DNA from: Sclerodactyla briareus
Lineage: Eukaryota; Echinodermata; Holothuroidea; Dendrochirotida; Sclerodactylidae
Direction of reading: 5' to 3'
Assembly: GCA_026419785.1 (NCBI GenBank)
Contig: JAODTK010003331.1
Location: 62,001-126,000 of the forward strand
Length of the DNA: 64,000 nucleotides
Notes under the pieces: generated by a model
What the model was told of the DNA's origin: nothing
What the model saw: only the letters and a program-made list of their open reading frames with translations
Database searches by the model: none
Program-made: the position numbers and the translations under genes
Part shown: positions 2,331 to 47,755 of the stretch, in pieces
How positions within the stretch are numbered: the stretch's first letter is position 1
Layout: each line of letters begins with the position of its first letter

Positions 2331-2344
2331 AGATGGGAGATAAG

Positions 2345-2592
2345 GTTTGAAGGGTTTGTTGATAAATCAAGTTTATTACGTCTTTGAGATGACAGTCAGT
2401 CCATGCTGCTGTAATGCCACACACACACAAATGGCAACTACCCTCATATGTCCCTGACTCCAATTTTTTTGTGAGCGCCCATGAAAGGCGAACAGGTACC
2501 ATTTTCGAAGTCTCTGGGGTGACACGATCAGGATTTCAACCCTGATCTCCCAGATGGACAGGCTGATGTTCTACCAACTGTGCCAACCACTA
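2345..2592 (-). mobile_element. tRNA-derived SINE
   Basis: Read on the minus strand, the element starts with a tRNA-like head. An A-box-like segment (TGGCACAGTTGGTAGAACA) lies at about 2567-2585. A B-box-like segment (GGGTTGAAATCC) lies at 2531-2542, about 30 bp downstream, which is tRNA-like spacing. The head is followed by a non-tRNA body of about 170 bp and a 3' end near 2345 rich in AATAAACTT. Such internal boxes normally drive RNA polymerase III transcription, with retroposition by a partner LINE. The anticodon arm is not well preserved, so this is a SINE rather than a functional tRNA. The 3' boundary is approximate. Confidence 0.7.
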
Positions 2593-3067
2593 TAATAATC
2601 TCAGACAAACAGTGGTAATGATGTTGAATGTCCATAATATTAGCCGATTCTCCTCAATCTGTATCATGGTGTTGAATATTCATTCATATATCATTATGAT
2701 CGAATAGCCAATTCTCCATTGGGATCATTGTTATGTTCAGTCAATCAGATTTCTTCCCAAATTAGAGGTACACTTGTACCAGCTGGAGGATCAGGCATTC
2801 CTTTTTTAGGTCGTGTAGCGCAATCGAGGAGGGACTCAGTATGTTCGTCTACTTTATACATAGAATACAAGTGGGATCCATCTACGTATACGTTTCTGTA
2901 CTTCTGATTTAATCACTGAGGCATATCACATCACACACATCCTTATCTACTGTACTTCGCCTGCTCACTTGCTGCTGGCTCAAGGTGAACCCTGTCACAC
3001 TCAAGGTAGGGCGGGTTCAAATACAACACTCCCCCCCCAACCTCCTTTGTCAGCTGAGGCACCATGA

Positions 3068-3104
3068 CGCGGGGGGGGGTGGGGGGGGGGGTGGGGGGGG
3101 GTTG
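3068..3104 (+). repeat. Poly(G) tract interrupted by single T
   Basis: Three runs of nine or more G separated by single T residues. This is one of the densest of the many G or C homopolymers in the window and could form G-quadruplex structures. Confidence 0.8.
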
Positions 3105-3681
3105 GGCCCGTGCCATACACAATGGTAGCATTCACCTTTCAGGTTGGTTGTGACTGTGGGGACCAATCTAAACCCCTACTTCCCCCGTACTTGATGATGA
3201 CACAATATACCACACTGTATCATCAGATAGTTTGTTATGCACCGTACGTGCATCTCTTATAACTTATTAAGAAATCCCCATGGACCTATTGTATACCTCT
3301 ATCCTGTCTTCATAAAACTATTAACATGCTACTAATCTCAGGACAAATTTGATCTCAACTTCAAACTTTCCATTCCGTTTTAAACGAAATTGGGGCTTGA
3401 ATGAAAGAACAGATGAATCCGTACACGTTGTGCCTTCTCCACATAATAATGCAACTCTTCCAGTGGTCAATTCTATTCCGTAGAGATATTTGACCTTCAT
3501 TCTCAACCACTGCATGAACTTTACCCCCAATCATGCAGTATCATTTGGATAATACAATTGACTATTTATCAGCCCCTGAATCAATATGCCTACTAGCAAT
3601 TTGTTGTGGGTAATGTTAATGGTTTTGAGAACATTTATAGTGTGACGGATTGTTTAAACAAGGCTGCCTTCCATGAACAGC

Positions 3682-4225
3682 TAAGGCTGCATGGTTCTTT
3701 GGAGATACCGCACAGGTTATCAATTTGATTCCAGAGTCAAACCATTTTTTTCTGCTATTTCACATCCCACGTACTGTCGTCAAATAAATCCCTGGTAGGC
3801 CCATACGGTGCAAGAAAGGCATGAGACAATCTAAAATTATCCATAAAGCCACCGAATCATTATGTATAATTGTTTTATGTATCACCGTTTTTATTCATGT
3901 TTGTAAGGTTTGCGGATAGAGCTGGCGGATGTATTCGACGGGGGCTGGGATCGTGAATACATGCCTCGCACCGATAACTGATAATATTTTCAAGTCCTTT
4001 CAGTGCTCTGTGCTGTCCGTTGCAGTGCGTGCCTGCGCATACATTTCCTTTCTCAAGACCCGGTGTCTGCGTTTATTAATGGATGACTCCTTTGATGATC
4101 AGTAACACGTTTTTTTTTTGCGGTGTGATTCGGTTATCTGTAGATTACGTAACCGAGTCTAACCGAGACGCGTTTTCACGAAACTGTTTTCACGGTTGAA
4201 GCCACTCATAAACCATGCAGCCTTA
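3682..4225. mobile_element. MITE-like element with perfect 15-bp terminal inverted repeats
   Basis: The 15-mer TAAGGCTGCATGGTT at 3682-3696 is repeated in exact inverted orientation at 4211-4225, delimiting 544 bp. The interior has no open frame of note, which fits a non-autonomous DNA transposon. The flanks share an imperfect AACAGC / GACAGC. This may be a target-site duplication but is too short and inexact to assign a superfamily. The inverted ends are seen directly; mobility is inferred. Confidence 0.55.
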
Positions 4226-5739
4226 GTGACAGCCCAGTCTATCATCAGTTACCCCAACAAGAGTCTGCATGGCCCATGAGCAACAATCCTTAGTTGGCTT
4301 GCTTGCCCACATGCAGGCAGAAGGGTATTCCGCCAAATGCACAAATCTTCCCCGGCCGATGCATAGAGAAGAACGAAGAACATACCTCTTTCTGTGCCCC
4401 ATGATTTCATTCTAACTCAGCAGAGAGCACCATGTCTGAGTGTGTAGCCTGGAGAAGGAGAAAAAAAAGTGGTTTTTCTTCCCAATAAATCTGAAGCATC
4501 TAAATGCGCTTACTTTTCACAGTGGTACGGCTGAAATGGGGGTCTGGGGGTTATAAAACGGAATCCAATGGAAATGGTAGTACTACAAGCCATTATATAT
4601 ATTTCAATTATTCCTGCCATAGTAGTTTCCGGTGCTGTCCAAATAAATTGAATTCTCAAGTTTATTAGACATGTTATGATCATGCCTTGTTACGTATGAA
4701 CACCCACACCCTGTTTGAGAATCAGAAAGGAAAAACCTCAACCTAATATTACAATTGTACAGATACTGTTAATACCTTTTTTATTTCCTCTATTTTTTTT
4801 TTATTACATAATACAGAATTTCTTCCTCAATAATTTGCATTCAAATTGCACTTAGAATGATAGCAACAAGTGCTTTGGAGATGGGTCTGTTCATCTCATT
4901 CGAACAACTACTCAATCACTCCTCAAAAAAGAGTCCACTTCAACCATTTTCCAGTTGAAGTGGACCTTATCCGAAACAAAACAAAGACTAACGAGAACAT
5001 CGCAATCGCGCTACTGTCTCGCCTGGATGCGCGATCAGTGGTTTCATTCATCCTCACTATGCAAGTCAAACTATGACATCATCTTCCATAGTGTGCTGCT
5101 TTCAAGATTCTGTTATGAGCATTTAACAGAAACATCTAACTAATCAGTGACCATTTCAAATTGACTGTTATTGACCTGTCTAACCGAAGGAGATTTTTTG
5201 GTCCCGTATGAAAAATGTGACTAAAATTCCTAAATTATTATGCAAATTCGACACGATACTAACTTCCCAATGACTAAAATTTCAGGATCATGGTGGCTCA
5301 CCTTGAATACGTTTTCATGGGAATCCCCACACTTGAACATTTGCATGATGAAGCATTATACACACTGAATTACCCTAGTGACTTGAGTCACTGTTCAAAC
5401 TTGGGGGGACTAGAAACTAAACCATACCAATCAAACTTCATAGAAATCCACAAACTTTGAAATTCGAAATAAACCATGCAAAGTATCACACTGACTGACC
5501 TCCATTCTATATTAAAAATGTTGCAAGCCATACCCACAGATTTCAAGACTTCAGATTCCACATCTTTATGCAAGTCCATGTACATTGAATGACCTCCAGT
5601 TGACCCAATCTTTGTTGAAAGTTTTGTACTGTCTGAGGTAGACCCATAGTCACCAATTTTTGAAAAAACAAAATGAAATTTCGCATTTTATGTGAATTAG
5701 ACAACTAATTAGCATATTTTATGCTGAAATCCTGTTTTG
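4226..5739. other. No gene seen; one strong hairpin
   Basis: AT-rich sequence with no supported exon. It contains one perfect 12-bp stem, GTCCACTTCAAC at 4933-4944 pairing with 4954-4965 across a 9-nt loop. Confidence 0.5.
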
Positions 5740-6790
5740 GGCCCTCTCTTTGTTTTCTCTTTCTGGTCCTTGTTATTCTAGGTTCTCTGGTAACTCCTCT
5801 TCTGTACCCTCTTTCTCACTACTCGTCTAAAACCCTAGCTGTTTTTGAAGACCCTTCTTTTTTTTATCTTGTCCTTTTTTCTTTTGTCCTTTGGTACTAG
5901 CCCCCCCCCCGAAAGGAACCCCGAAAAAAAAAAAAAAGAGACCCCCCCTCTTTCGGTTACCCTCTTCTCACTACCCTGTCTAAACCCTACCTGTTTTGAG
6001 CCCTTTCTTTGTTTTCTCTTTCTTGTCCTTTTTTCTTTGTTCCTTTGTACTACCTCTTTCTGTTACCCTCTTTCTCCTACTCTGTCTAAACCCTCCTGTT
6101 TTGAGCCTTTCTTTGCTTTCTCTTCTTGTCCTTTTTTCTTTTGTTCCTTTGGTAACTATCCCCTCTTTCTGTTACCTCTTTTCTCACTACTCTGTCTAAC
6201 CCTCCTGTTTTTGACCCTTTGTTGTTTTCTTTCTTGTCCTTTTTGTTTTTCTTGGGTTTCCTTGGTACCTACCTCTTTCGGTTCCCTCTTTCTCACTACT
6301 CTGTCTAAACCCTAACCTGTTTGAGCCCTTTCTTTGTTTTCTTTCGTGGTCCTTTTTCTGTGTCATTTGGGAACTACCTCTTCTGTGACCCTCTTTTCAC
6401 TACTTGTCTAAACCCTACCTGTTTTGAGCCCTTCTTTTCTTCTCTTTTTGTCCTTTCTGTTGTTTCCTTTGGTAACTACTCTTTCTGTTTACCCTTTTCT
6501 CACTACTCTGTCTAAAACCGAACTGTTTTGAGCCCTTTGTTTGTTTTCTTTTCTGTCCTTTTTTTTCTTGGGTTTCTTGGTACCTACCTCTTCGTTACCC
6601 TCTTATCACTACTTCTGTTAACCTTACCGTTGAGCCCTTCTCCTGTTTCCTCTTTCTTGTCCTTTGTGTTTTTATTGGGTACTTGGTACCTACATCTTCA
6701 TGTTACCCTCTTTCTCACGACCCTGTCTAAACCCTACCTGTTTTAGGCCCTTTATTTGTTTTCCTTTCTTGTCCTCTTGTTTTGTCTTTT
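5740..6790 (+). repeat. Pyrimidine-rich minisatellite, about 107-bp unit, about 9-10 copies
   Basis: The landmark TAAACCCTACCTGTTTTGAG, or a close variant, recurs at roughly 5980, 6087, 6197, 6306, 6409, 6513, 6618 and 6728. This gives units of 103-110 bp. The plus strand is almost entirely C and T, with a purine-only complement. Open frames of up to 156 codons run through it, but the unit is not a multiple of three and the peptides are simply F/L/S/P-rich, so I do not call genes. Such mirror-type polypyrimidine tracts can adopt triplex DNA. Confidence 0.9.
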
Positions 6791-6899
6791 GGTTCTTTGT
6801 ATCTGTTCTGTTTGTTGCAGTGCCGTGTCTCCTCCCATCCTCCGCCTGGAACTTACGAGCCAGTTCATCGTCATCTATGATCTGTTCAATCAAATTTAA

Positions 6900-22599: not shown

Positions 22600-23345
22600 C
22601 GAATTTTTCAGACCTGACCTCAGATAACCTCCTACCTGACCCCAAAACAATAGGGTTCATGTAGCCATCATGGGAACACACTACCAAGTATGAGCTTCAT
22701 GAATCCAGGTGGGGGTTCGAGTTATATCGTGGTTTCAAGCCCAAAATTGGCCAAAATATCGTCCCTTTTACCATTTTCATTTTTGGACCAAAATTTACCC
22801 CGACCTGAACAAAAACAATAGGGTTTCCTGTACTCCCCTAGAAAGCTATACACCAAATTTCAACTGAATCGACCAACATTCTGCACTTATCTTGTTTACA
22901 AGGTTTTTCTCATCTTGCCGCTCTGGTGACCCAATACCTCTGACCCGACCCAAACAATCAGGGTTAATGTACACCTCATGGGAAACCACATAACAAGTAT
23001 GAGCTCGATCCATCCAGGTAGGGCGATTTATTGTGTTCACAAGCCAAAAATTGGCTAAATATACACTTTTCACAATTTTCCATTTTTTTTTCCCAGAAAT
23101 GGACCCCGATCTACATTAAACAACAATAGGTTCTTATACACCCATAAGAAAGCTGCTCATCAAATTTCAACTGATCAACTAAGCATTCACGACTTATCGT
23201 GTTCACAAGTTTTTTTCAACTTTGACCTCCATGACTTCCCATTAATTTTTTACCCGTCCCCAAAACACAAGGATCATGTACACCTTTATGGACCGAACCC
23301 ACATACCAATTAGAGTTGATTCCATTCAAGTGGGTCGGTTATGTG
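22600..23345 (-). repeat. Array of a repeat of about 310 bp, inverted relative to the 28.6-29.6 kb array
   Basis: Landmarks such as CAAGTATGAGCT...ATCCAGGTGGG recur about every 307 bp (near 22690, 22996 and 23300). AACAATAGGG and AGAAAGCT elements lie between them. The reverse complement matches the array at 28590-29633. About two and a half diverged copies. Confidence 0.8.
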
Positions 23346-23929
23346 TTCAGAAGCCGGGCGTCACTGTCGTCAAGGAAATAGAAGAAAAAATATAAAAAAA
23401 TTACCTACCACTATACTACCACCATACCAGGAAATAGCTGGATTCTTGAAGTCACCATACTAATTGTACGATTACCGGAAACTTCAAATACATGTCGAAA
23501 AGAGCGAGTTGTTGATTCCAGAGCTGTTGGGCGAACGATATGCAACCCCGACTACCAAGGATCTGGAATTACACGAAGCGTTGGACGGAATTTAAAACCA
23601 AACACTTGACGACTAACAACCTGATAATATCTATCTATCTCATCTGTCTTCTCAATGCTCAAGTCAGACCTCACAAAACCCAAACTCCCGCCCCCATGCC
23701 ACGAGAAGTATCTGTCCGATCTTGCCATAATTCTTATAAGCAACATACCTGGAAACGTAACTTCGGCTGAGGAAATGTTACTGTTTTCATCAAGACCGTC
23801 GTAATTCCACTACGTCATAGGCCTTGCGTTCCTGTACCCTCTTGATTTGCAACGGGATCACCTTGTTCCTGATACTTTGAACATTAACGCATAAAAAACC
23901 TCTCGCTATTTTGTCTTAGCGCTAAAAGC

Positions 23930-28566: not shown

Positions 28567-28589
28567 GTGTGACCCTTGCTTGTGCAGAG

Positions 28590-29633
28590 CATAACTCGGC
28601 CCCACCTGGATGGATGAATCTCAATACTTGGTATGTGGGTTCCCCATAATTAGTACCGGATACCTATTGTTTTTGTCAGGTCAAAGGTCATCAGAGGTCA
28701 AAGTCTGAAATCCTTGTGAAGAGGAATACGTCCAGACGCTGTGTTCCAATCAAGTTGAATTGGGTGTGAGCTTTCATATGGGAGTACAAACCCCCTATTG
28801 TTCTTGGTGCAGAACCAGGGGTCATTTGGGGGGAATGTAAAAAAATTGTGAAAAGTTTGATTTTTGGGGAATTTCAGCTTGTGAAGAGATAACTGACCCC
28901 ACTTGGATGCATCAAGTTCATATTTGGTCTGTGGGTTCCCCATATTATGAGTACATGATTCCTATTGTTTTGGGGTCAGGTACAAAGTCATCTGAGGTCC
29001 ATTAAAAGTAAAAGTCCTGAAAATCTTGTAAGAGGATGAGTCCAGAGTGATCAGTTCCAAGCCAAGTTGCATTAGGTGTGGTAGCTTTCTTGTGGGGTAT
29101 ACAAGTGCCCTATTGTTTTTGGCAACCAGGGTTCATATTTTTGAAGAAAATTGAAAAATTGTGAAAAATTGAATATTTTATTCAATTCCAGCTTGTGAAA
29201 GAGGCATAACTCAAACGCCCACCTGGAATGGATGACGCTCATACTTGGTATGTGGGTTCCCCATAATGAGTACAAATGAATCCCTATTTGTTTTAGAGTT
29301 AGGTCCAAAGTCACTGAAGGGTCATTAGAGGTCAAAGGGATGAAAATCTTGTGAAGAGGATAAGTCGAGATCGCTTGGTCCAATCTAAGTGAAATTTGTG
29401 TGTAGCTTTCTTGTGGGGAGTACAAGTGCCCTTTTTGGTGGCAGTAGACGCAGGGGTTCAGTCCGGGAAGAAAATTGAACAATTGTGAAAAATTGATATT
29501 TTTGGGCATTCAGCTTGTGAAGAGCATAACTAGACCCCACCTGGATGAATGAAGCTCATACTGGTATATGGGTTCCCAATAACGAGTACCTGATCCATAT
29601 GGGTTTTGGGGTCAGGTCAAAGTTTATCTGAGG
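28590..29633 (+). repeat. Array of a repeat of about 310 bp, interrupted by a large transposon
   Basis: The landmark TGGTATGTGGGTTCCCCAT recurs at about 28630, 28925, 29250 and 29563. CTTGTGAAGAG, CCTATTGTTTT and AGGTCA-rich segments lie in each unit. The array stops at 29633 and resumes at 40005, after a 10.4-kb foldback element, with a matching part of the unit (GTCAAAGTTTGGAAC, CTTGTGAAGAGTATAAGTCCAG). It is a satellite-like or dispersed repeat family, and it is present in the opposite orientation at 22.6-23.3 kb. Reverse-strand open frames in it (for example 29072-29509) are repeat translations. Confidence 0.9.
28678..28700 (+). promoter_or_regulatory. Three AGGTCA half-sites (DR1 plus DR4 spacing) in the 310-bp repeat
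   Basis: AGGTCA occurs at 28678-28683, 28685-28690 and 28695-28700. The first pair is separated by 1 bp and the second by 4 bp. DR1 and DR4 are known binding arrangements for nuclear receptor dimers (RXR, HNF4 and related). Other units have degenerate versions (near 29315). Binding is not shown; only the pattern is seen. Confidence 0.4.
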
Positions 29634-31862
29634 AGTAGTGATATGCATGCATGTGGATGGGGGGGGGGTCGCGCCCTAACCACATTTTTCATGTAACCAC
29701 TCCCTGTGGCCCCAACACAATACGTGCAATGTGCCCCTCGTGATGGAATTCTAGTCAACTTGTTGGATCAGTGTAGCTCCACACCCGATAACGGGTTATA
29801 GCTGCGGTTACTTCCCGAGAAGTGTTTGTGCCCTAACCCTTGAGAATTGTGCCCTCCTCGAACGTGGAGGAAGTCCCCTCTACTGAATTTTTGTGAGTGT
29901 ACCCCTCCCCGAACATGAAATGCAGTTCCACTCAATACAGCCTGCTCGGTGTAATGGTAATAGCATCGTCAACTCGAGTGAGTCAAACGGTACATACTCT
30001 TAGGGGCGTGGTAAGGAGATGGTCATTCACAGCGGGTACAAGTGTAAGGTGACCGGGCACAGCAGTACAAGGACGCCTATTTGAATCAATCTTAGTGAAA
30101 GGTTTTGAGCTATAGTGATTGGGGTTGAACGCGGCGGGGCTCCTCTATTGTAACGGTGCCATCCTAGTTTATGTACATGTAATTTAATTACTACCCGGTC
30201 ACCGTTCGCTTAGGAACCATGAAATTGCCGTTCCGTGTCTCCTGTTGAGAGGTGCTGGCAATTCGAAAAGAAGATATATCTTATAGATACGAGTCATTTT
30301 CATGATGAAAATTTGGCACTCTGCCACCCGTTTAATTAAAGTGATACATATAGGGTCGCCCAATATCCCTAATATTGCGACTACCTAAAGTAATTTATCA
30401 AGTGATTCAGAAATGATTGAATCGCAATAAAATAAACAACTGAATAAAAAAAAAATGCAACTTTGGTTTTTTTTGCGCATGATATTTTGGAATTGGTTTA
30501 ACAAGTTACTCCTTGTCATTATGGCTATGCCTGGAGAACTGTATAAGTAAGTCAAACCGACGAAATATCTGATCGAGGATATAAAAGAATATTCTTGAAT
30601 CTAGCAATATTTAGATTTGGTATTCCCCCAGAAACCAGCGGGATGAAGTCGTGAAAAAATAAACCATTTATTATGCAAGCAAAGAGTGGATTTGAGTTCG
30701 TTATTAGATATTGGTTGGCCTACTTCGGGAGACGTACAAAGCTTATTTTGGGCCAATTGGAAATAAACGTTTAAAACACCGTAATTTTCACTTGAGTGTA
30801 CTTATTTTCCACTAACTTTCAAAAATCACTTATAAATTCAGGAGTACACCTGGCCCAATCACAACAACACCCTGGCAAGTGTCATAGTCACGTACGTGTC
30901 AATCAAAGCCCCGGCACAATGGTGCCAGAATCTGATAGGTTACATGTTTATAAACCATTAACGTAATTGGGCGGTTCGGTATGCACTCGAGGGTTTCCCA
31001 GAAACATGCAGCGGATCACATTGCCGCCCATCTGCCTCTTTACCCGGAGGCTACGGTACTACTGTCATCGCCTCATTTTATTCAGAGCACACAGCTCATT
31101 TTTATTTTTGTTTTTTTGTTGTTGAGCAGCACGCTGCCTCCTTCGCTCATTTAATGTCAGGCTACCTCTCATTCCTCTCATTTTGTTCTGAGCACCCTGC
31201 TTCCGCGCTCATTTATTCATAGCATATTGGCCTTGATTGCTCATTGACCATTTGATTTTGAACGCACTTCTCGTTTTACACTCATTTTACAAGTGACATA
31301 CTGCTCATTTCCGCACTCCATCCGGAACCGACACCATTTTCAAACGCTGTTGGCGGGGGACTTGAGGGAGGGAGAAGGTTCTTGTAAAACATTACAAAAA
31401 CACAGCACCCATTGGACTGTGGACAACAAAATCGATACATCAAAAAAAACCCCCCCCTCTGAAAATTGATGCATGTTTGGGCAAACAAACATTATTAAGG
31501 TGCATCGACGCAAACGAACGGAACTAATCGAAAAAAAATAATGTTCTGCGGAATAAAAGTATGAGATTGAAAATTTAATTGAAGGATGGTTGTGTCCGTC
31601 TAACCAACGTAAAATCACATTTTTAGTATCGTGTTTTTCTTTCCTGTGCCACCATCACGTCTGCCCTCTTTTTCACGTCTCGGTATTGCGACGAATCTTT
31701 GTGTCAACTCGTCGCTCCATAGACACGCATCGTTTTGTGTAAACCGCACCATGGCGGACCATCATCGTCGTGTCCTGCGTTATATCATCAATTTGCCCAT
31801 CTTTACTATGATACGCTGCTCATTTTCTCGGTGCACATTGCCTATATTCTCATTTTTACTAG
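29634..31862 (+). repeat. Left terminal inverted repeat of the foldback element
   Basis: Reading inward: a G run, then a segment pairing with 39300-40004 (shared TCAACTCGAGTGAGTCAAACG and GGTTTTGAGC). Next comes a segment pairing with 34880-35437 (shared CAGAAACCAGCGGGATGAAG-like and CCTACTTCGGGAGACG), then CTCATTT-rich repeats at 31058-31320. The innermost part, with GACGACGCATC-type repeats, ends at ATTCTCATTTTTACTAG near 31862. The arm is not interrupted by the insertion present in the right arm. Confidence 0.85.
31058..31320 (+). repeat. Subterminal CTCATTT-rich repeats, left arm
   Basis: At least eight CTCATTT or CTCATTG cores alternate with GAGCA segments at irregular spacing of roughly 20-45 bp. 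The mirrored array is at 34610-34880 in the right arm. Clustered short subterminal motifs are typical transposase-binding sites in some DNA transposons; that role is inferred. Confidence 0.6.
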
Positions 31863-32680
31863 GACGAGAACGCAAATCGTCGTGTCATAACAGACCGTCA
31901 TCATCGTGTCATAGGACGACGCATCATCGTGTCCATAGACGGACGCAACATCGTGTCCTAGACGACGCATCATCGTCATCGTGTCATAGACGACGCATCG
32001 TCGTCATTGTTCGTTTTGCTCGGATACCGTGCTCACCGCTCAATTTTGTTTAAGATTTTGACTGAATAGTACAATATGACAAGTGTCCTTTTTCTGGATT
32101 TCGTATTCTTACCGGAGTTATAGGGAAAAGGTCTTAAAAAAACTTACACAACCACATACACCATTGGACTGTGGCACACAAAATCGATACATCAAACCCC
32201 CCCCCCCCCCCCCCCTGACAATTTACAATGTTTTGGGGCAACCCAACCTTATTAGGTGCATACACAATCGAACGGAACTTGATAAAAAAAATATGTTACT
32301 ACTGCGGAAATAAATTGTAGAGATTGGAAAGGGTAATTGAAGGATGGTTGGTTCCGTCTAAATACCGTAAAATACATGTTTTTTGGCGGGTATCGTGTCT
32401 TCTGTCCAAAATCAACGTCCGGCCGCCCATCTTTTCATGTCTCGGTATTGCGACGCATCCTTTGTGTCAACTCGCGTCATAGACGACGCATCGTTGTGTC
32501 ATAAACGAACGCAAATCATCGTGTCATAGACACGCATCATCTCATTGTTTCGTTTTGCTCGGAGTACACTCTGCTCACCCACCCCTGCTCAATTTGGTTT
32601 TAGAGTTGACTGAATCAGTACAAATAGGACAAGGTGGTCTTTTTCTGGATTTCGTATTCTTATCGTAGTTATTCAGGACT
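31385..32680 (+). repeat. Direct duplication inside the left part of the foldback element
   Basis: A segment at about 31385-32125 is repeated at about 32148-32680. Shared landmarks are CCATTGGACTGTGG, AAAATCGATACATCAA plus a C run, TTGAAGGATGGTTG, CACGTCTCGGTATTGCGACG-like and TTTTTCTGGATTTCGTATTC. The first copy is longer because it has extra GACGACGCATCATCGTGTCA repeats at 31880-32000. A 140-codon open frame through the first copy is a product of the repeats. Confidence 0.82.
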
Positions 32681-33385
32681 AGCGTCTTTGTGTCAAAACG
32701 ACGGAATTCATTCCGAACTGCTTGGGTGTATGCTCAGTGTAAAGTCCTCTGCATATCAGTCCAATTAAAGGCTGTCGTCCCGGCTTCAATATCTATGAAC
32801 GACTAAAGTTATTCCGCATTAGTGACCTCACTGTCAGCGGCCCCGTACCCTCTATATAATAACCCACGCTACGCTATATTGCTCGAATAACCAGAACAGC
32901 CACATATCGCATAAACACGAATGCCGGATTCCATAGATGCGTATGGTTCCATGCTCGATAAAAAATATTATAATCTTCGGGGGGAACGATGTTTTGTTTC
33001 AGAAGAGAAAACATCTATAAGTGTATGCGAAAAGACGATAACAGGCAGCAGTCTTCATGCATATTGTCTTTGCGTGTTTTTTGAGACGATATTCCATAGA
33101 ATTCATCGCGTGATACGCATTCCGCATACGCATTGGCACATGTGCTAATTTCGCTCATTCGCGATTGTTTGGCCTTCATTTATGACTTTTGGCTTCTGTG
33201 GAATCATTTCTATCTTTGCAAACTAATAAAACATTTCCACACACTAGCCCCCGCTCAGTTTCACGTAAATGGCGTTGTTCACATACGCATACGCATCTAT
33301 GTAACCCCAGCCTTACACCGACTCATCATTTTCCATCTAGAAATAAACATTTGTGTGTCCGCACAGACTCGTGGAAGCCTTTAAA

Positions 33386-33586
33386 TTAGTTCGAGGCGGG
33401 TAGCTGGGTGGAGACCGGGCTGGCGATATATCGCGATGTTGGGGGGGATTTGGCGTTGTAGGTTGTTTCTTTCTTCTTCTGTTTTTCTTTCAAACCACGA
33501 GGCTTCGCATCAGTTGCGCGCGCTTGGTTCGCCAGCTGTTTGCGCATCAATGCGCGAAGTATAAGGATAGTTGCAAGAGGTGACAA
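33386..33586 (-). CDS. Basic open frame in the centre of the foldback element
   Basis: A minus-strand frame of 66 codons is rich in K, R and Q, including KPRGLKEKQKKKETTYNAK. A pyrimidine tract followed by GCGCAAACAG (about 33535-33600) could be an acceptor that makes this a downstream exon of the ORF starting at 34079. No domain is recognised. It lies in non-repeated interior sequence, where a coding gene would be expected if the element is or was autonomous. Low confidence as a gene. Confidence 0.25.
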   Translation of the reverse strand: MSPLATILILRALMRKQLANQARATDAKPRGLKEKQKKKETTYNAKSPPTSRYIASPVSTQLPASN

Positions 33587-33968
33587 AGGGAAAGATGAAC
33601 TTAATATTTCTCGTTAGACTAACAACTCGGAATAGACAGAAAATTACATTCTTCGTATCCATATTAATTTACCTCTCACTATTACAATGTATAAACTCGA
33701 TAGGCACCAAGATACAGTCAAATATTGATGGGGAATAAAACAGTGAAATTGATAATACTGGCGACACATGCAACGTCAATCACATACTATAGAGAATAAT
33801 AGGGAGACGACATGACATTTAGAACTGTTCCTAGCGGGTGTCTTTATCAGTTAATATACGGGAAGTATTAAAACCTATTCAAAGTCAGTGTTAACATGGG
33901 ATTATTCAATATGGCGTGAACCATGCGTTTCAGCGTCATCGTCAGCATCACCCTCATCATCAGTTAAT

Positions 33969-34079
33969 TTACAAGTCGATTAAGTAATCATCCATTTCGT
34001 CTGCATCTTCCCTTTTGCGCTTCACACTCCGGCGGAGTAGCTTGTGAAATTCCGATGGATTTTCACTAAAGAGCTCCAT
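33969..34079 (-). CDS. 36-codon ORF starting about 10 bp inside the right inverted repeat
   Basis: The minus strand reads ATGGAGCTC and encodes 36 residues: an N-terminal MELFSENPSEFHKLLRR helix-like segment, then a nuclear-localisation-type KRKRED, then an acidic end before TAA. A GTAAAT at the stop could alternatively be a splice donor, making this the first exon of a longer gene. The start lies about 10 bp past the end of the arm homology near 34090, so the arm would serve as promoter and leader. The left arm ends in the same sequence but has no equivalent ORF. I do not recognise the protein. Confidence 0.4.
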   Translation of the reverse strand: MELFSENPSEFHKLLRRSVKRKREDADEMDDYLIDL

Positions 34080-34089
34080 AGTTCTTCTC

Positions 34090-35437
34090 TAGTAAATTGA
34101 GAATATAGGCATTGTGCTCCGAGAAAATAAGCAGCGTACTCATAGTAAGATGGGCAAATTGAGACTATAACGCAAGGACACGACGATGATGCGTCGTCCA
34201 TGGTGCGAGGTTACACAACGATGCGTCGTCTATGACGCGAGTTGACACAAAGATGCTCGCATACCGAGACGTGAAAAGAGGGCAGACGTGATTTGGCAGC
34301 CGAAAAACCCGAACTGTATTTTACGGTAGACGGAACCAACCATCCTTCAATTAACTTTTTCAATCGCTACACTTTTATTCCGCAGTAACATATTTTTTTT
34401 TAATTAAGTTCCGTTCGATTGCGTCATGCACCGTATAATTGTTTGTTGCCCCAAAACATGCATCAAGTTGTCAGAGGGGGGTTTGATGTATCGATTTTGT
34501 GTTCCACCGTCCCAATGTGTGGTTTTGTATGTTCAAAGACCTTTTCCCTCCCTCAATTCCCACGCGTTGAAAATGTGTCGGATCCGAGAAGTGAGAGATG
34601 GCAGTATGTATGTCACTTGTAAACTGAGTGTAAAACGAGCAGGGTGCGTTCGAAATATCAAAATGAGTCAATGAGGCAATCAGGCAATAGGCTAAATAAA
34701 TTGAGCGCAGGAGCAGTGTGCCCAGAACAAAATGAAGGAAATGAGATGTTTATGCTCGGAATAAATGAGAGAGCGAAGGAGCAGCGTGATCAAACACAAA
34801 AACAAACAAAACTGAGCAGTGTGATCTGTAATAAAATGAGCGAATGAGCAGTACCGTATGACTCCGGGTAAAATGGGCAGATGGGCAATGTGATCCGCTG
34901 CAAGTTTCTGTGAACCCTCGAGTGCATAGACCCCCAATTACGTTCAATGGTTCGCACATGTCACATTTCAATTCCGGCCACATTGTCCGGTTGTGTGTGA
35001 TTGACCGTACGTATATGCACTTCCCAGAGTGTTCTTATGATGAGGCCAGGGATTACTCCTGATTTATAAAGTGATTAAAGTTAGTGGAAAATAAGTACAC
35101 ACATAGTGAAAACTAACGGGTGTTGTTAACGTTATTTCCAATTGACCCAAAATTTAAGCTTTGTACGTCTCCCGAAGTAGGCCAACCAATATCTAATATG
35201 AACTCACTCCATCTTGCTTTCGCAGTAATAAATTGTTATTTTCACGACTTCATTCCCGCTGGTTTCTGGGGGAATACCAAATCTAAATATTGCTAGATTC
35301 AAGAATATTCTTTAATATCCTCGATCCTGATATCTTCGTCGGTTGGATCACTATACAGTTTTTCCAAGGCATCGTAATGACAAAGAGTAAAAGGTTTTAA
35401 AACCATTCCAAATATCATGCGCAAAAACACACAAGTT
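34090..35437 (-). repeat. Right terminal inverted repeat, inner part
   Basis: This is the reverse complement of about 30470-31862 with scattered indels. It contains the CTCATTT-type array at 34610-34880. Similarity breaks near 35437 and resumes at 39205, marking an insertion. Confidence 0.85.
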
Positions 35438-35439
35438 TC

Positions 35440-38400
35440 ATTTTTGTGATTCCTTGGCGAAGCCATAAGGAATCTAGCAAGTAACGCGTGTGCGTGTGTG
35501 GTTGTGTGTGTGTGTGTGTATGGGGTGGATGTGTGTGTGTGTGTGTGTGTTGTAACACTTCGTTTCTCACGAGATATCTAACAAACGCAAAGCAAAGAGT
35601 ATTATGTCATATCGGTAGGTAGGGTCACCCATGAAAGGGATTGACCCTATTATTTTTTTTTTTTTGGTTACCAATCGATGGTCGTTCAAGGTCATGAGAG
35701 GTCAAATTTTGAAAAAGTGTTTCCGCACGATCTTAATGATCGCAAGCAGGTATGAAATTAATATTTGGTAGGTAGGTGTAATGTAAATCATTGGCGGGGG
35801 AGACCTATTGTGTTTGGTGTGAGGTCAAGGTCATTGTAGGGTTCATAATATGGCAAGCTTAGATATATGGGCAACGAAACATTTTAGAGTGAGGTATATG
35901 GAAAGTTTTGGTCGTCTGGTTGAAATCCATCTGGTGCCGTACTTTGACCTTCATTTGACTTTGGCCTTCTGACCTTCATTGACCTCTGACTAGTGATTTT
36001 GCCGGCTTTTTTGTATTGGCGGGAGGCATCTTGTTAAGACAAACAAAAAAGTCAATGACACTACATACTACGATACTTCTGATCACAAGCTATCTCAATG
36101 ATGTGGAAGTCAAGACAGCAAAACATGGAATGTGGATAAATTGGCATTTGACATCTGCTACTCAGAATGATATCTAATGAATGCAAGATATATCAAAGGT
36201 CAAAGAAGTGTGGGATTGGACACACGATGAAAGAATAACCCTATTGTTTGTGGTATAGTCAAGGTCATTCCAGGTAACCATAGGACAATCTTATATCTAT
36301 GCAACGATTCATTGTACAATGTGAGAACAAGCATATAGCCAACCAAGACAAAATATTATCACCAGTGTGAAGACAGTACAAAATTCTTGAAATTGTATTG
36401 TTATCATTATTACTGATATGTTTGAGTATTGGACTAGCCACCAACAATTTCCTAGACACAGAAAGTACAATTCTGAATTGTCATTTTATTATTAGTGACA
36501 GTGTGGGACCAGCATATATGTACCTCTGACAGTAGTGGTTGTTGCTACGGGTGGGGGTTGGCATTTTGGTCTTGCACGACATCCGCACCACCCCCCCCCC
36601 CCCCGGTTTCTAGGCAGCTTATGTGAAATTTAAAAAAATGTAGCCCTGTTTGAAGCCTGCATCACTGCATTCTTTTTCTTTTTTTTTTCTGACAAATTCC
36701 TAATTGCAAAGCCAGGAGAAAACGCCTCCTTCTTGCGTATACCTCCTTCCATTTAGTGTTACATTTTCGAACCACAAAAGTGTTGTGGTGCCCTATTCAT
36801 AAAATCGGGGTTGCTTCATTACCCCTCCCCTCTCCCCTTCCCCAATATACAAGTATTCCCCCAGTGAAGACAGTACAAATCTGCAATTGTCATTGTATTT
36901 ATTATTCCGGATATGTCTGAAATATTGGACTAGCACAGTGACCAGCCTATGAGTTGTAGTGATGTATGTAACTTCTGGATTCAGTAGTGGGTCACGTGTT
37001 GCTATGGGTGGCGTGGAATTGCAAGGCAGATTACGCCTCTCTCTGCTTTCTTACATGCACCACCCCCCCCTCCCCCAGGTTTCATAGGGCAGTCTATGAA
37101 AATTGAAAAATGTAGCCCAATTTGAAGCCTGCATCACTAATTCATTGCAAATTCCTTATTTGCCAGGAACAGAATACGTTTCTTCCTTGCGATACTTTCT
37201 ATACAACTGGATATCGCTGGGAGGGGTAGACAAACTGGCAATTTCTTCCAAAGGCGTATATGATATTTACTTGAGGGGAGAATGGCCAAGTTGTTGCGTA
37301 CATTATTGGAAAAAGGTGAGATGATCTTGTCAAAGTCCCATGTAATAGTTATGACAGCAGAATGCACACCAGGAAATGTCCTGCTGAATTCATTAGAGCA
37401 CCTTCTGGTAGCCCAGCCATGATCCTCTTCAAACACTGTCTGCATTGTGTGGTATATAATAATCCTTAAGTTGACTGGTCAAGATTTCCCATACTCAAAA
37501 AGCAGTTAATCTTCAAACATAATAAATTTAGGAACTGCCTGGCAGACATTCAGTGTGGAAATGGTACCAGGCACTGGCAATGCTCGAGGATTGAGAGGGG
37601 TATCAAGTTTATTCGCTGTGGGCACTCGGTCTACTGATCATCTGATTGTTTCACTTCCCTATTGGGAATGCGGAAAAAAAGCACGCTTCCAGGTTGTGAA
37701 TTACTTGACAGGTGGGACTGACCATTGGGTATTATTAACGGTGATTCATAGACAAGCCCTAATGAGGGGATTAAACTGTGGTGTGTGTAGACACAGTGAG
37801 TTGGGAGGGAAGGAAGAAGAAAGCAAGGGGCAAGTAAGCTTCTGAAAGTAGGAAGGGCACAACATTTGTGGCATTTTTGCTATTGAGCAAAAGTGAGGGC
37901 ATTACCCGTACCCCAGGCAGAAATGGGCCAGGTGGGTAAGTCTTAGAAAAGTATCTCTGTCTTTCCAGTGACTCTCTATCTGGTGTTGACTGTCACCTGA
38001 TGTGGACTATTTGGAATTTTAAGTGATTGCCAGGATAATTAACATGTTAAAACAATTGGCCGAAGTCATACGATCAACATTAACTGAGCCCACAAAATTC
38101 AGAAACGTCTCAAACAGGGCTATCTATACTAGAAAAATTACAAAGATCTTGTCTGTATTATTATTGTATATTATTGCAGCCAGTATATTGTTATGGAGGT
38201 GCTCTTGCTGCATGGGGGGGGCATATCGCAGAGCCCTTCCTCAACCCCCACCAATGTAGGAGAGAAAATGTGATTTAAAAGCCTTGTGAAAAGTTTGACA
38301 CAAAAAATAGCAATAAGACATTTGATGGACGGGTAAAATGGCTATTGATACAAGTATCTGAGGAACGTATGCACTTGTCAATGCATGACTCACCCCTTGT

Positions 38401-39204
38401 ATCCCAGAAAAGGTGAGTCAGTGCACTTCAACAAAATGATGACCCCTCAGTCACTTGTGCCTGAAAAATAATGAAAATTGATTACACCCACAGTCACTTC
38501 TAAGAGACCAACTACCGGCTGTACAAATTTAAAACGAGTGACTGGCAGACTACCCCTCAGTAACATTATTGATTAACGGCATATGGTACAATGACAACAT
38601 GTGAGACACCATTCTATTCGACACTGACTGTTACTCTACAATGACTGGCCTTGTCCAGGGTAGTGGGAGGGATGCAATTGATAAGATATAGCCTGTTATG
38701 CACTTCTCTGTCCACACACATCTACCCCTTTAAAAGATATTTTTCACATTTGTTATGATGTTTTGTCGTCCATGTCAAGAACTGCAACTTCATTCAATCT
38801 ATCTGCTTGACCACCCATTTACTTATGACTATTAATTGTGCTAAAGTGATCCCATCATTTAGCCTTGCCTCAGTCCTGGCTGAACGTAGTTTTACGGTCG
38901 CGGGACTTCCCATCCTGATGAAAAACATTGGACCTTCGCCGTTATGACTCGTGACTTACCTTCACTCTTCAGAATATATTACTTACCAGGTTTATTTTTC
39001 AGTATTTCATTGTCATTGCCACTCATGACTTTTTGACCTTGGGCAAAAGCAACAAGTATCTCATCCCTGCGCTTAGTAAATATGCAGTGATCGTTTGGGT
39101 GTCAGTGGTGTTTAGCTGGCAACACACATCCTGCAGAGTTTGATAGAAAGCTGAGACGGGGAACATGTCATAAAACGGCAAGGTCATCATACGCATAGTG
39201 TTTT
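35440..39204. mobile_element. 3.8-kb insertion in the right inverted repeat
   Basis: The sequence has no counterpart in the left arm, where the flanking positions (about 30440-30470) are contiguous. It holds a (GT)n tract (35492-35550), AGGTCA-containing segments at 35640-36290, a duplicated segment and otherwise no recognised gene. Plus-strand frames at 37555-37845 and 38023-38259 and a minus-strand frame at 37137-37445 carry no domain signal. I could not identify its termini or a target-site duplication, so its class is unknown. Confidence 0.65.
36365..37200 (+). repeat. Two tandem copies of a unit of about 490 bp inside the insertion
   Basis: GTGAAGACAGTACAAA, GATATGT-TGA-TATTGGACTAGC, GTTGCTA-GGGTGG, a C run, and GTAGCCC-GTTTGAAGCCTGCATCACT occur at 36365-36740 and again at 36860-37200 in the same order. 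Confidence 0.85.
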
Positions 39205-40004
39205 GTTTTATTTATTCATTGTTTATTTTTTGTATTAATCATTTCTGATTCCTTGAGAAATTACTTGTGTTTTCGCAATATTATGGATATTGGCGACCCT
39301 ATAATTTATCCACTTTAATAACGTTTGCAGAGTGCAAAGTTCAGCATGAAAAGATCGTATCTATACGTATATTCTTCTTTCGAATGCACCCTCTCAACAG
39401 AAGCCACGGCAACCGCTAATTTCATGGTTCTAATCGAACGGTTACCGGGTAGTAATTAAATTAACCGTACATAAACTAGAATAGCCCCATTCACACACAT
39501 AGAGACCCCGCCGCGTTTAAAACCCCAATCACTATGCTCAAAACCTTTCACCTCAGTTGATTCACCAAAGGTCCTTGTACCTGCTGTTGCCCTGTCACCT
39601 TACACTTGTACCCGCTGTGCCTGACCATCCTACACTACCTAAGAGTATGTACCGTTTGACTCACTCGAGTTGACGATGCTATGCCCTTACACCGAGCCGG
39701 CTATATTTATTGGAACTCATTTTCATGTTTCGGGAGGGCCGTACACTCACAATTAGGTAGAGGGCACATTACTCACGTCGAGGAGGGCACATCTCATGTA
39801 GGCCCACACTTCTCGGGAAGGTAACCCGAAGCTATAACCGTATCGGTGGAGTGTTTACAGAAGATCATAACAATTGACTAAAGCTCCATCACTGAGGGCA
39901 CTCCCGTATTGTGTTGGGCACGGGAGTGTACAATGAACAATGTGGTTTAGGGCGCGACCCCCCCCCCCTCCCCCCCCCATCCACATGCAATGCATAGAAC
40001 TACT
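39205..40004 (-). repeat. Right terminal inverted repeat, outer part
   Basis: This is the reverse complement of 29634-30440. It includes the terminal C-rich block at 39959-39980 and the conserved ends. The 310-bp array resumes immediately after 40004. Confidence 0.85.
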
Positions 40005-40420
40005 CTAGTCAGAGGAGTCAAAGTTTGGAACTCTTGTGAAGAGTATAAGTCCAGAATGAGTTGGTCCAATCAAGCTGAAATCTGGTGTGTACTTCTTATT
40101 GCGAGTACAATAACCCCATTAATGTTGTTGTTTGATTTTGGGGGGGATTGTAAAATTGGGACAATTTGATTTCTCATACACTGTACCATCTAGACTAACT
40201 CTCTTGGTCTGTGGTTCATCTTGAAGAGGTAAATGGTCCCCTATGGTTTGGGGTCAGTCGCGGGTCATCTGGCCTCAGAGAGGTCAAAGTCTGATGCTAG
40301 CTATTCGTTGCCTGGAAGTATCTATAAGTAATTCCACAATGTTATCAGTCTGTAATCCCCAATTTTCTTGGAGTAAGGTCAAAAGTAATCTATTTTACCA
40401 AACTTTAATGAAGTTCATAA
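40005..40420 (+). repeat. Continuation of the array of about 310-bp repeats
   Basis: It begins with GTCAAAGTTTGGAACTCTTGTGAAGAGTA-type sequence. It carries the AGTCCAG, TTGGTCCAATCAAG and GGGGTCAG landmarks of the array that ends at 29633, in the same orientation. Confidence 0.8.

Positions 40421-43118: not shown

Positions 43119-43163
<45 letters not shown>
43119..43163 (+). repeat. Poly(C) run of 45
   Basis: Forty-five consecutive C residues, the longest homopolymer in the window. The proline- or glycine-rich open frames crossing it are artefacts. Confidence 0.95.
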
Positions 43164-44662: not shown

Positions 44663-44700
44663 CGGCCGTATGGCAAGCCGTTTCACTTTTATTCGGCATT

Positions 44701-45460
44701 TAGAGAATCTACAAGTTTGAGGAATCTTCAAATAAATGTAGATATCTCCAAATAATGCAGATATCAGCAAATCAATTGAAGATATCTTTAATTAATTAGA
44801 GACTTCTTCAAAATATTTACTGATATCCCCAATTAATTGAAAGATATCAACTAAACAAATGTGGGGGAACAAAGATATTTTTAAATAATTAGAGGTATCA
44901 ACACTTCATTTGAGGATATCTCTCAATATTTGAAGATATCAATAATAGATTTACAGATATCTTCAAATGAGTGTAGATATCCCAAGTTATTTGAGGATAT
45001 CTGCAAATGTTTGCGGACAGATATACAACAAAGAAATAGTTGGTATCAGCAACAGGTTTAATGATTATCCCAAATCATTTTGAAGAGATCCACAATCTCT
45101 TTGTTGATATCTACAAATGAATTGTGGATATGCTCATTGAATTGATATCTGCAACTTACTTATTGATATCTACAATTCTACTATTTTAGATATTCCAATT
45201 CATTTGTAGTTTTACTAATCGCAATATAGATTCAAACTATTGAATAGTTGATATCTTCAAATAAATGATTCGAAGATATCTTCAATTCATTGGCAATATC
45301 TACAATTTCATTTGCAGATATCTTAAAATACTGAATAAAAGGCCAAAACGGTTGCGTTCTGATGATCTATGGTCTATCTTGAAATTCTGAATTTGCATTT
45401 GAAAATATCATCAAATGAATGGAGAATATTCAAATAATGGTAGATATCTCCAAATGCTGG
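44701..45460. repeat. Left GATATC palindromic satellite array
   Basis: About 30 degenerate units around AGATATCTNCAAATNATTTG. The central GATATC is itself palindromic, and the CAAAT/ATTTG pair makes the whole unit self-complementary. Units vary by indels. Confidence 0.88.
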
Positions 45461-46909: not shown

Positions 46910-47755
46910 ATTTGAAGATATCTTCAAATCATTTGTAGATATCTCCAATTGCTTCTAGTGAAACGGCTGCCAGTATTTGTAGATATCCACAATTATTTGC
47001 AGATATCTACATTGATTGCTTGCATATCTCCCAATTTTTGAACAGGCTCAATTGATTTGCTGATATCTTCAAATATTTGGAGATATCCACATCATTTGGA
47101 GATATCTTCAAACTATTTGAGATATCGCAAATCATTTGAAAGATATCTTAATTATTTGAAGAATTTCCAAATGCTGAAATACAAACTAAAAAACGGCTGC
47201 GAAATGTATATATATATCAATTTCCAATTGCATTGTAGAATCCTCAACACATTTGAGGATATCTCCAATTAATAGTTAGAGTAGATATTCAAAACTGTAA
47301 TTTATTGATATCAATTAATTCAACATATCACGGTATTAATTGTAGATATCTATGGTCGAATTGCTGATATCAACAAATGAATTGTAGATATCTGTAATAG
47401 AATTTGTAGATATCCACGATTAAATTTTAGATATCACCCAGTAAAGCACTTATTGATATCTACAATTCAAATGTCGATATCAGCAAATGGCTTGCGGATA
47501 TCCTCAATTCCTCTGTGGATATCTCCAAATATTGAAGATATCAATACTTGGATCTACAGATTCGTTCAAATTAGTTAGGTTTTTTTTATTATTATTAATA
47601 TCTTCAATTATTCGAAGATATCAACAAAGAAATTAAGGATATTCTCAAATATTTGAAGATATCTTCAATAATTGGGGATTATCTTCAAATGATTTGCAGA
47701 TATCTTCAAATATTGAAGATATCTGCAAATAATTGTGGATATCTCCAAATACCGA
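46910..47755. repeat. Right GATATC palindromic satellite array
   Basis: Same repeat type as 44701-45460, with about 35 units. Because the unit is self-complementary, orientation cannot be assigned. Short open frames within it are repeat translations. Confidence 0.88.

Follow-up and report, generated by a model that had tools for sequence, protein, structure and literature searches.

The foldback insertion analysed here belongs to a family in the genome of Sclerodactyla briareus that is probably a non-autonomous element of the Polinton/Maverick class, its body turned into a giant palindrome and its tips recognised in trans by a Polinton integrase. The copy in the window (the whole 64,000-nucleotide stretch of DNA that was analysed) is a damaged member of this family, with its right arm split by a 3.76-kb insertion and its centre deleted. 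Long modular inverted arms make up most of the element, which places it structurally among the foldbacks.

The whole insertion (29634..40004, no strand assigned) was delimited by self-BLAST of the window, by its tips and by related ends on 10 contigs, and consists of a centre-deleted copy with a nested insert. The left tip (29634..29670, + strand) begins with AGTAGT followed by TATGCATGCATGTGGATGGGGG-like sequence, and AGTAGT begins the reverse complement of the right tip (39971..40004, - strand); the ends at 29634 and 40004 are thus matched, as an earlier note made from the sequence had claimed. The left arm (29634..32128, + strand) corresponds over 29659-32128 to arm positions 38-2509 of the fullest family copy (C2937), with the tip added by eye, and contains a tandem array at 31876..32007 (+ strand; 22-28-bp unit, ATCATCGTGTCATAGACGACGC). 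A local duplication follows at 32122..32889 (+ strand), where arm positions 1738-2079, then 2322-2693, occur a second time in part and show as direct repeats in self-BLAST. The inner left arm (33314..34091, + strand; C2937 arm positions 2707-3456) has no counterpart in the right arm of the window copy. Arm positions 3456 and 2200 are joined by the centre deletion at a junction near 34090, after which come the inner piece of the right arm (34089..35445, - strand; arm positions 2200-862), the nested insertion (35446..39201, no strand assigned) and the outer piece of the right arm (39202..40004, - strand; arm positions about 867-1). The nested insertion is a separate high-copy repeat of ~3.76 kb, outside the foldback family, and interrupts the right arm within a T-rich tract. 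Self-BLAST paired 29655-30455 with 39971-39202 (81.7%, 830 columns), 30451-31862 with 35445-34089 (81.6%, 1470 columns) and 32208-32499 with 34481-34213. The earlier note had described a 10.4-kb element with arms collinear over about 2.2 kb. The foldback insertion within a satellite array stands, and so does collinearity for the left arm; the right arm lies in two pieces 3.76 kb apart, 2.2 kb is not the full arm length (4.1 kb in C2937), and 10.4 kb is not a natural size, as it includes the nested insertion and lacks the palindrome centre. No tRNA was found in the window by ARAGORN, and no Rfam match at the gathering threshold.

Other copies with the same ends, to which the earlier note had looked for confirmation, were found in the same genome: the outer 822 bp of the element gave 17 matches on 10 contigs. 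Six loci carried both ends; at one of them, C2317, the right arm is just ~0.15 kb long. C2937, the most complete copy, has two 4.1-kb arms (748-4853 and 9276-5159 of L010) around a 305-bp loop and forms a palindrome of 8.5 kb. C2219 has the same centre as C2937, on a contig that starts inside an arm. Different copies occupy different insertion sites, and their centre deletions fall at different points. In C125, a difference of about 384 bp and a short linker are identical in both arms, and both are common to C1833.

It is very improbable that missed hairpin adapters or a mis-join, the latter raised in the earlier note, made the inverted arms. The assembly does look error-rich, and error-rich assemblies are the setting in which false palindromes occur. 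A false palindrome would bear its flank on both sides, whereas the same end sequence was found on 10 contigs, several independent loci share tips at or near which the inverted match ends, and their outer flanks differ. At the window site, the host satellite to the left (28578..29633, + strand; unit about 310-323 bp) resumes in phase to the right (40005..40330, + strand, the stretch tested, where the right flank alone aligns over its bases 5-168). The joined left and right flanks align as a single stretch to the unit of the array (joined 2-313, 78%, E 7e-55), so the resumption in the same orientation reported earlier was borne out, and in phase.

Assignment to the Polinton/Maverick class was based on the tips and the target sites, and gives a tentative placement to an element that the earlier note could match to no described family. 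The element reads 5'-AGTAGT...ACTACT-3'. AGTAGT was exact at 10 of 16 ends and one base off at 3, and right tips were eroded at the other 3; a 17th end, on the right side of C125, was excluded from this count, its arm stopping at arm position 394. Published Maverick ends are (AGT)2//(ACT)2, the commonest end motif of the class, or related short tandem tips, together with a 6-bp target-site duplication (PMC8097293). Among the six two-ended copies, identities between flanks at length 6 were 6/6 (C155), 5/6 (C2937), 4/6 (C2785), 3/6 (C3141), 2/6 (window) and 2/6 (C2317), summing to 22/36, and identity peaked at 6 bp with no peak at 8-10 bp. The target-site duplication, which the earlier note had proposed to look for, was therefore at 6 bp clear in two copies, weaker in two and not seen as such in two, the window copy among the latter. 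The alignment scores summed to 24, where permutations averaged 16.7; counting the true arrangement, 6 of 720 permutations scored at least as high. The duplication exceeds chance across the six copies together but not in the window copy by itself, whose left flank scored 4 against the right flank of another copy and 3 against its own. The bases next to the window copy are CTGAGG on the left (29628..29633, + strand) and CTAGTC on the right (40005..40010, + strand), with no clean duplication of CTGAGG. We read CTAGTC as possibly CTGAGG minus two bases; in the best BLAST alignment, the joined flanks fit without any duplication.

AGTAGT with 6 bp is a short signature. A 21-base tip pattern, with as many as 3 mismatches allowed, gave 40 matches and its reversed control gave 25, so most of these matches are chance. 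A second Polinton family was considered at six loci with AGTAGTACACATGCATGAATG-type sites and rejected: the shared stretch lies mainly upstream of the tip and the bodies differ. Judged by their sequence, these sites appear to mark the end of a different short repeat.

An ordinary cut-and-paste foldback (Mutator, P/Galileo-like or IS3EU/GingerRoot), with Polinton-like tips by chance and arms that had lengthened as their ends recombined or underwent conversion, a route proposed for Galileo, is a rather unlikely source of the family. The family resembles the Drosophila foldbacks Tetris and Galileo in its long modular inverted arms, tandem motifs within them, rearranged copies and transposase-less copies consisting of arms; classified foldbacks are mostly thought to be Mutator elements, and Galileo is a P element (PMC4079207, PMC3573991). 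Nor does 6 bp alone exclude Mutator, because a range of 4-10 bp is given for the duplications of MuDR-type elements (PMC10045372), and no Polinton gene was found in 18 frames from inside the family. Tetris, however, is assigned to Mutator with duplications of 8-10 bp (PMC4079207), in contrast to the peak at 6 and the AGTAGT tips seen here, and the 6-bp duplications of IS3EU and GingerRoot accompany termini of TA..TA or TG..CA (PMC10045372) rather than AGTAGT..ACTACT.

The 18 fragments, taken from arms and centre, comprised 16 of the 47 open frames listed for C2219, C2937 and C155 and two from the window arms. No PolB, integrase, ATPase, protease or capsid was recognised in them with Pfam; the frames are likely broken by indel errors, and matches below the cut-off were to unrelated families only (DUF6478, SlpA, Speriolin_C). 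That no transposase is recognisable, as noted earlier, holds and carries little weight at an assembly noise of roughly 7-16% per arm, rich in indels. Searches of the genome for COX1 and for ubiquitin were both empty; the ubiquitin result fits, without proving, frames broken by errors. Non-autonomous copies would lack Polinton genes in any case.

Near the centre of C2219, the outward-reading strand holds open frames of 144, 113 and 93 aa, which are notable given the assembly noise, and the searched stretch of the palindrome centre matched only family copies and, over 105 bp, a site on C2154 around which the 7 kb fetched held no more family sequence. Both observations would suit an autonomous element of an undescribed class, in which a central gene for a novel transposition protein would be read outwards along the two arms. 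We consider this improbable: none of the three frames had a Pfam family above the cut-off, no noteworthy relative of the 144-aa frame was found in PDB, nor any relative in viral contigs, and a comparison of stop codons across copies failed to separate the centre frames from control frames. C939 was also tried as an autonomous element with short repeats and was rejected; its arm match ends after about 264 bp, the following 1.25 kb was found nowhere else, and its listed open frames showed no evident gene by inspection.

For the preferred Polinton/Maverick reading, candidate helpers were sought elsewhere in the genome. Fragments of Polinton/organellar-type PolB (PF03175, a family described as spanning organellar and viral polymerases generally) were found on C1756, C2897 and C127, two of the three scoring under Pfam's cut-off. 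These contigs were absent among the 15 matches listed for the first 167 bp of the family, and in the 40 kb fetched around the C1756 fragment neither an inverted pair nor homology to the arms passed the cut-offs. Among the matches listed, a search that gives a lower bound, there was no autonomous partner with the family's ends.

Arms are closer within a copy than between copies. The true pairing was equalled or beaten by 4 of 945 pairings for outer arms and by 1 of 105 for inner arms, itself included in each case; this likeness of sister arms could be partly an assembly effect. The C2937 arms differed with an indel/substitution ratio of 1.65 and a Ti/Tv of 0.29. A shuffled-arm control was also indel-rich (189 indels to 99 substitutions, Ti/Tv 0.46), and a simulation with the same aligner was run on that account. 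Neutral-like divergence gave ratios of 0.22-0.35 with Ti/Tv near 2, and error-like divergence gave 2.12 with Ti/Tv 0.47. The apparent arm divergence looks like mostly long-read error, and because of this the family looks young.

Under the proposed mechanism, the integrase would insert the DNA with a 6-bp stagger. The arms would be alike since one served as template for the other. The simplest route would be fold-back synthesis in a protein-primed replication intermediate, on its displaced single strand. The long palindrome would be unstable after insertion and lose its centre, and the window copy would be a centre-deleted derivative that also holds the unrelated 3.76-kb repeat. Palindromic defective genomes of protein-primed viruses and self-complementary forms of parvoviruses arise through fold-back copying of linear DNA with a terminal priming site; the comparison is an analogy, as the present family is known from integrated copies alone. 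A more specific version, which we hold tentatively and think somewhat doubtful, is that Polintons have in this family a palindromic satellite, its DNA self-complementary and of snap-back form, comparable to a defective-interfering virus genome. One Polinton end would have been doubled when a displaced strand folded onto itself and was copied, and a Polinton integrase would integrate the hairpin in trans.

The sea-urchin TU elements (Strongylocentrotus purpuratus, in a 1983 study) reportedly have long inverted repeats divided into outer and inner domains, a modular middle, variable centres and insertions; their duplications are said to be 8 bp, against 6 bp here, and this comparison is by description. 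With Polintons/Mavericks the family shares (AGT)2//(ACT)2 tips, 6-bp duplications and terminal inverted repeats, but intact vertebrate elements are 12.7-24.6 kb long with arms of 46-1,447 bp (PMC8097293), and the family is 8.5 kb long with arms of 4.1 kb. It is almost without a unique interior, with none of the five Polinton genes named above recognised.

Titles and abstract openings among the literature matches listed described no Polinton-class foldback. To our knowledge, no foldback transposon has been assigned to that class. If the Polinton reading holds, the family is a link between two groups of mobile DNA, and fold-back copying in protein-primed replication offers a testable route to very long palindromes with like arms. 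The family also supplies, in its concerted arms and recurrent centre deletions, a natural set of palindrome-instability events. Should the palindromic-satellite version be true, foldback elements would be an expected by-product of protein-primed replication. The end signature of the family suggests that virus-like transposons of the Polinton/Maverick kind may mobilise hairpin-shaped passengers, inside which no machinery for their own movement was found.

The window was compared with itself, and two inverted pairs were recovered within the foldback element (window 29634..40004): 29655-30455 matches 39971-39202, and 30451-31862 matches 35445-34089, at about 82% identity in each pair. These correspond to the inverted arms claimed by the earlier note; the collinearity it had also described held for the left arm, which is unbroken, and failed for the right arm, which lies in two pieces with 3756 bases between them. 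The element interrupts a satellite, and once the left and right flanks were joined the satellite ran on in phase, as had been stated for the far side. Diverged kin of this satellite lie inverted at 22606-23354 (71-81% identity in pieces). Other repeats in the window were a pyrimidine-rich tandem array at 5947-6793 (unit ~106-109 bp, ~8 copies), a run of 45 consecutive C at 43119-43163, and a palindromic AT-rich array (ATATCTTCAAATATTTGAAG) of ~20-bp units at 47047-47751, which has relatives in inverted orientation near 44663-44854.

The source assembly (319 Mb, 3171 contigs) was checked for further copies with these ends, and the candidate element of the earlier note proved to be one of several: the outer 822 bp had at least 17 matches (a lower bound) on 10 contigs, two each on C2235 (which carries the window at 62001-126000), C2317, C3141, C2937, C155, C2785 and C125, and one each on C2219, C1833 and C939. 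Copies were compared in ten fetched stretches, taking in all nine contigs besides C2235. The fullest, on C2937, has arms at 748-4853 and 9276-5159 of its stretch (L010) around a 305 bp loop, and its arm, counted from the tip towards the palindrome centre, served as ruler for all others. Aligned to this ruler, the other copies are derivatives that have lost the centre at differing points. The last left and first right positions were 4061 and 3077 in C155, 4372 and 3577 in C2785, 2620 and 141 in C2317, and 3456 and 2200 in the window copy; in C3141 they were 1698 (plus a scrap at 2501-2535) and 2505. Long palindromes are unstable, and the differing deletion points fit such instability. C2219 keeps the centre, its contig beginning within an arm, and C939 matches the family for ~264 bp only. 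An isolated match to the palindrome centre (~77%, 105 bp) was seen on C2154 near 115.7 kb (L040 4655-4784), with family sequence otherwise absent from the 7 kb around it.

The 3756 bases that split the right arm (window 35446-39201) had near end-to-end matches at many loci, mostly as two overlapping pieces (38 of 1645 candidates were scored, giving at least 106 matches). Because so many loci match nearly full length, this insert is a high-copy repeat in its own right, inserted into a T-rich stretch of the right arm. Its ends are sharp at many loci, a short hairpin (GATTCCTT..AAGGAATC) is present at one of them, and parts of the repeat occur in tandem on C2251; it is possibly Helitron/Helentron-like. 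Sites with AGTAGTACACATGCATG recur at six loci (L041-L046) with common sequence on the outer side, and probably form one terminus of a different short repeat.

Sister arms (the two arms of one copy) differed by 1.65 to 2.36 times as many indels as substitutions, with Ti/Tv of 0.19-0.42 (six comparisons). As a shuffled control was likewise rich in indels, the aligner was checked on simulated arms: the ratio of indels to substitutions was 0.22-0.35 under neutral-like change, with Ti/Tv near 2, and 2.12 under error-like change, with Ti/Tv 0.47; the C2937 arms under the same aligner gave 1.65 and 0.29. The arm differences thus fit uncorrected long reads, and given this error-like profile true arm divergence is probably small. 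Noise per arm was ~7-16% (additive fit). With that noise taken out, sister residuals were negative in 8/9 comparisons (exception, C155 outer); the true pairing was equalled or bettered by 4 of 945 pairings of outer arms (n=10, true one counted) and by 1 of 105, that is by itself, for inner arms (n=8). C125 and C1833 represent a second form without ~384 bp of arm (positions 559-943); in C125 the loss and a short replacement linker are present in both arms, and this linker recurs in C1833. The likeness of sister arms, together with the change common to both C125 arms, suggests that one arm served as template for the other, whether before insertion or after it. Part of the likeness could come from assembly, if one arm's reads were used for both, but this leaves the linker shared with C1833 unexplained.

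The tips were examined at 16 ends by alignment with a tip probe, the 17th (C125, right) being left out because that arm ends at position 394. AGTAGT was exact at 10, departed by one base at three (C155 left, C2317 left, C2219) and was eroded at three, all right (C3141, C2785, C2317). Left and right flanks of the six two-ended copies agreed at length 6 in 6/6 positions for C155, 5/6 for C2937, 4/6 for C2785, 3/6 for C3141, and 2/6 for both the window copy and C2317, the values for eroded right tips hinging on placement because these were positioned by alignment. Summed identity was 22/36 at length 6, 14/30 at length 5, 9/42 at length 7 and 8/48 at length 8. Local alignment scores summed to 24, where permutations averaged 16.7; this sum was attained in 6/720 permutations (true arrangement counted). 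In the window copy, pairing the left flank with the right flank of the same copy scored 3, and pairing it with the right flank of C155 scored 4, so this copy alone lends a duplication no support. CTGAGG minus two bases may be made out in the right flank, but when the two flanks were joined, their best BLAST alignment to the satellite required no duplication.

In PMC8097293, the commonest ends of vertebrate Mavericks are 5'-(AGT)2//(ACT)2-3', with 6-bp duplications in intact elements, and PMC10045372 lists Polinton with 6 bp. The family ends (AGTAGT..ACTACT) and a 6-bp duplication fit these, unlike IS3EU and GingerRoot, which also have 6 bp but end in TA..TA or TG..CA (PMC10045372), and unlike Tetris, a foldback assigned to Mutator with 8-10-bp duplications (PMC4079207); the MuDR group, however, is quoted with 4-10 bp (PMC10045372). 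Polinton/Maverick therefore appears the best class, resting on a short signature.

Counting against this class, the element has no recognised Polinton gene and no helper with family ends was found. Eighteen open-frame fragments (16 of 47 listed, from C2219, C2937 and C155, plus two from the window arms) gave no Polinton gene in Pfam; their matches, to DUF6478, SlpA and Speriolin_C, all fell below cut-off, Speriolin_C reaching 19 bits (E 0.0014) where the cut-off is 27. For two frames within the nested insert, Pfam returned no match. From the C2219 centre, three frames (144, 113 and 93 aa) run outward; they had no Pfam family above cut-off and were not separable from control frames in a stop-codon test, and the 144-aa frame, the one searched there, had no relatives in PDB or viral contigs. 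Given the per-arm noise and error-like profile, missing open frames are weak evidence. Fragments resembling Polinton/organellar-type family B DNA polymerase (PF03175, cut-off 25.8 bits) were found on C1756 near 139.5 kb (L021, 30.5 bits, the one of three above cut-off), C2897 near 112.8 kb (L048, 23.7 bits) and C127 near 1.4 kb (L049, 16.9 bits). None of these contigs was among the 15 matches listed for the family's first 167 bp, and piecewise comparison of 40 kb around the C1756 fragment found neither arm homology nor an inverted pair.

The passages available from PMC3573991, PMC6431247 and PMC8504770 describe no Polinton-type foldback. Those of the Galileo paper (PMC3573991) note inverted-repeat expansion and mention Polintons, so long Polinton repeats per se would have precedent, and those of PMC6431247 have Polintons replicating by a self-encoded protein-primed polymerase. 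By analogy with linear protein-primed genomes, displaced strands may fold back, and fold-back copying would then yield palindromic DNA. Most likely, the family consists of palindromic DNA of this origin, inserted by a Polinton-type integrase acting in trans.
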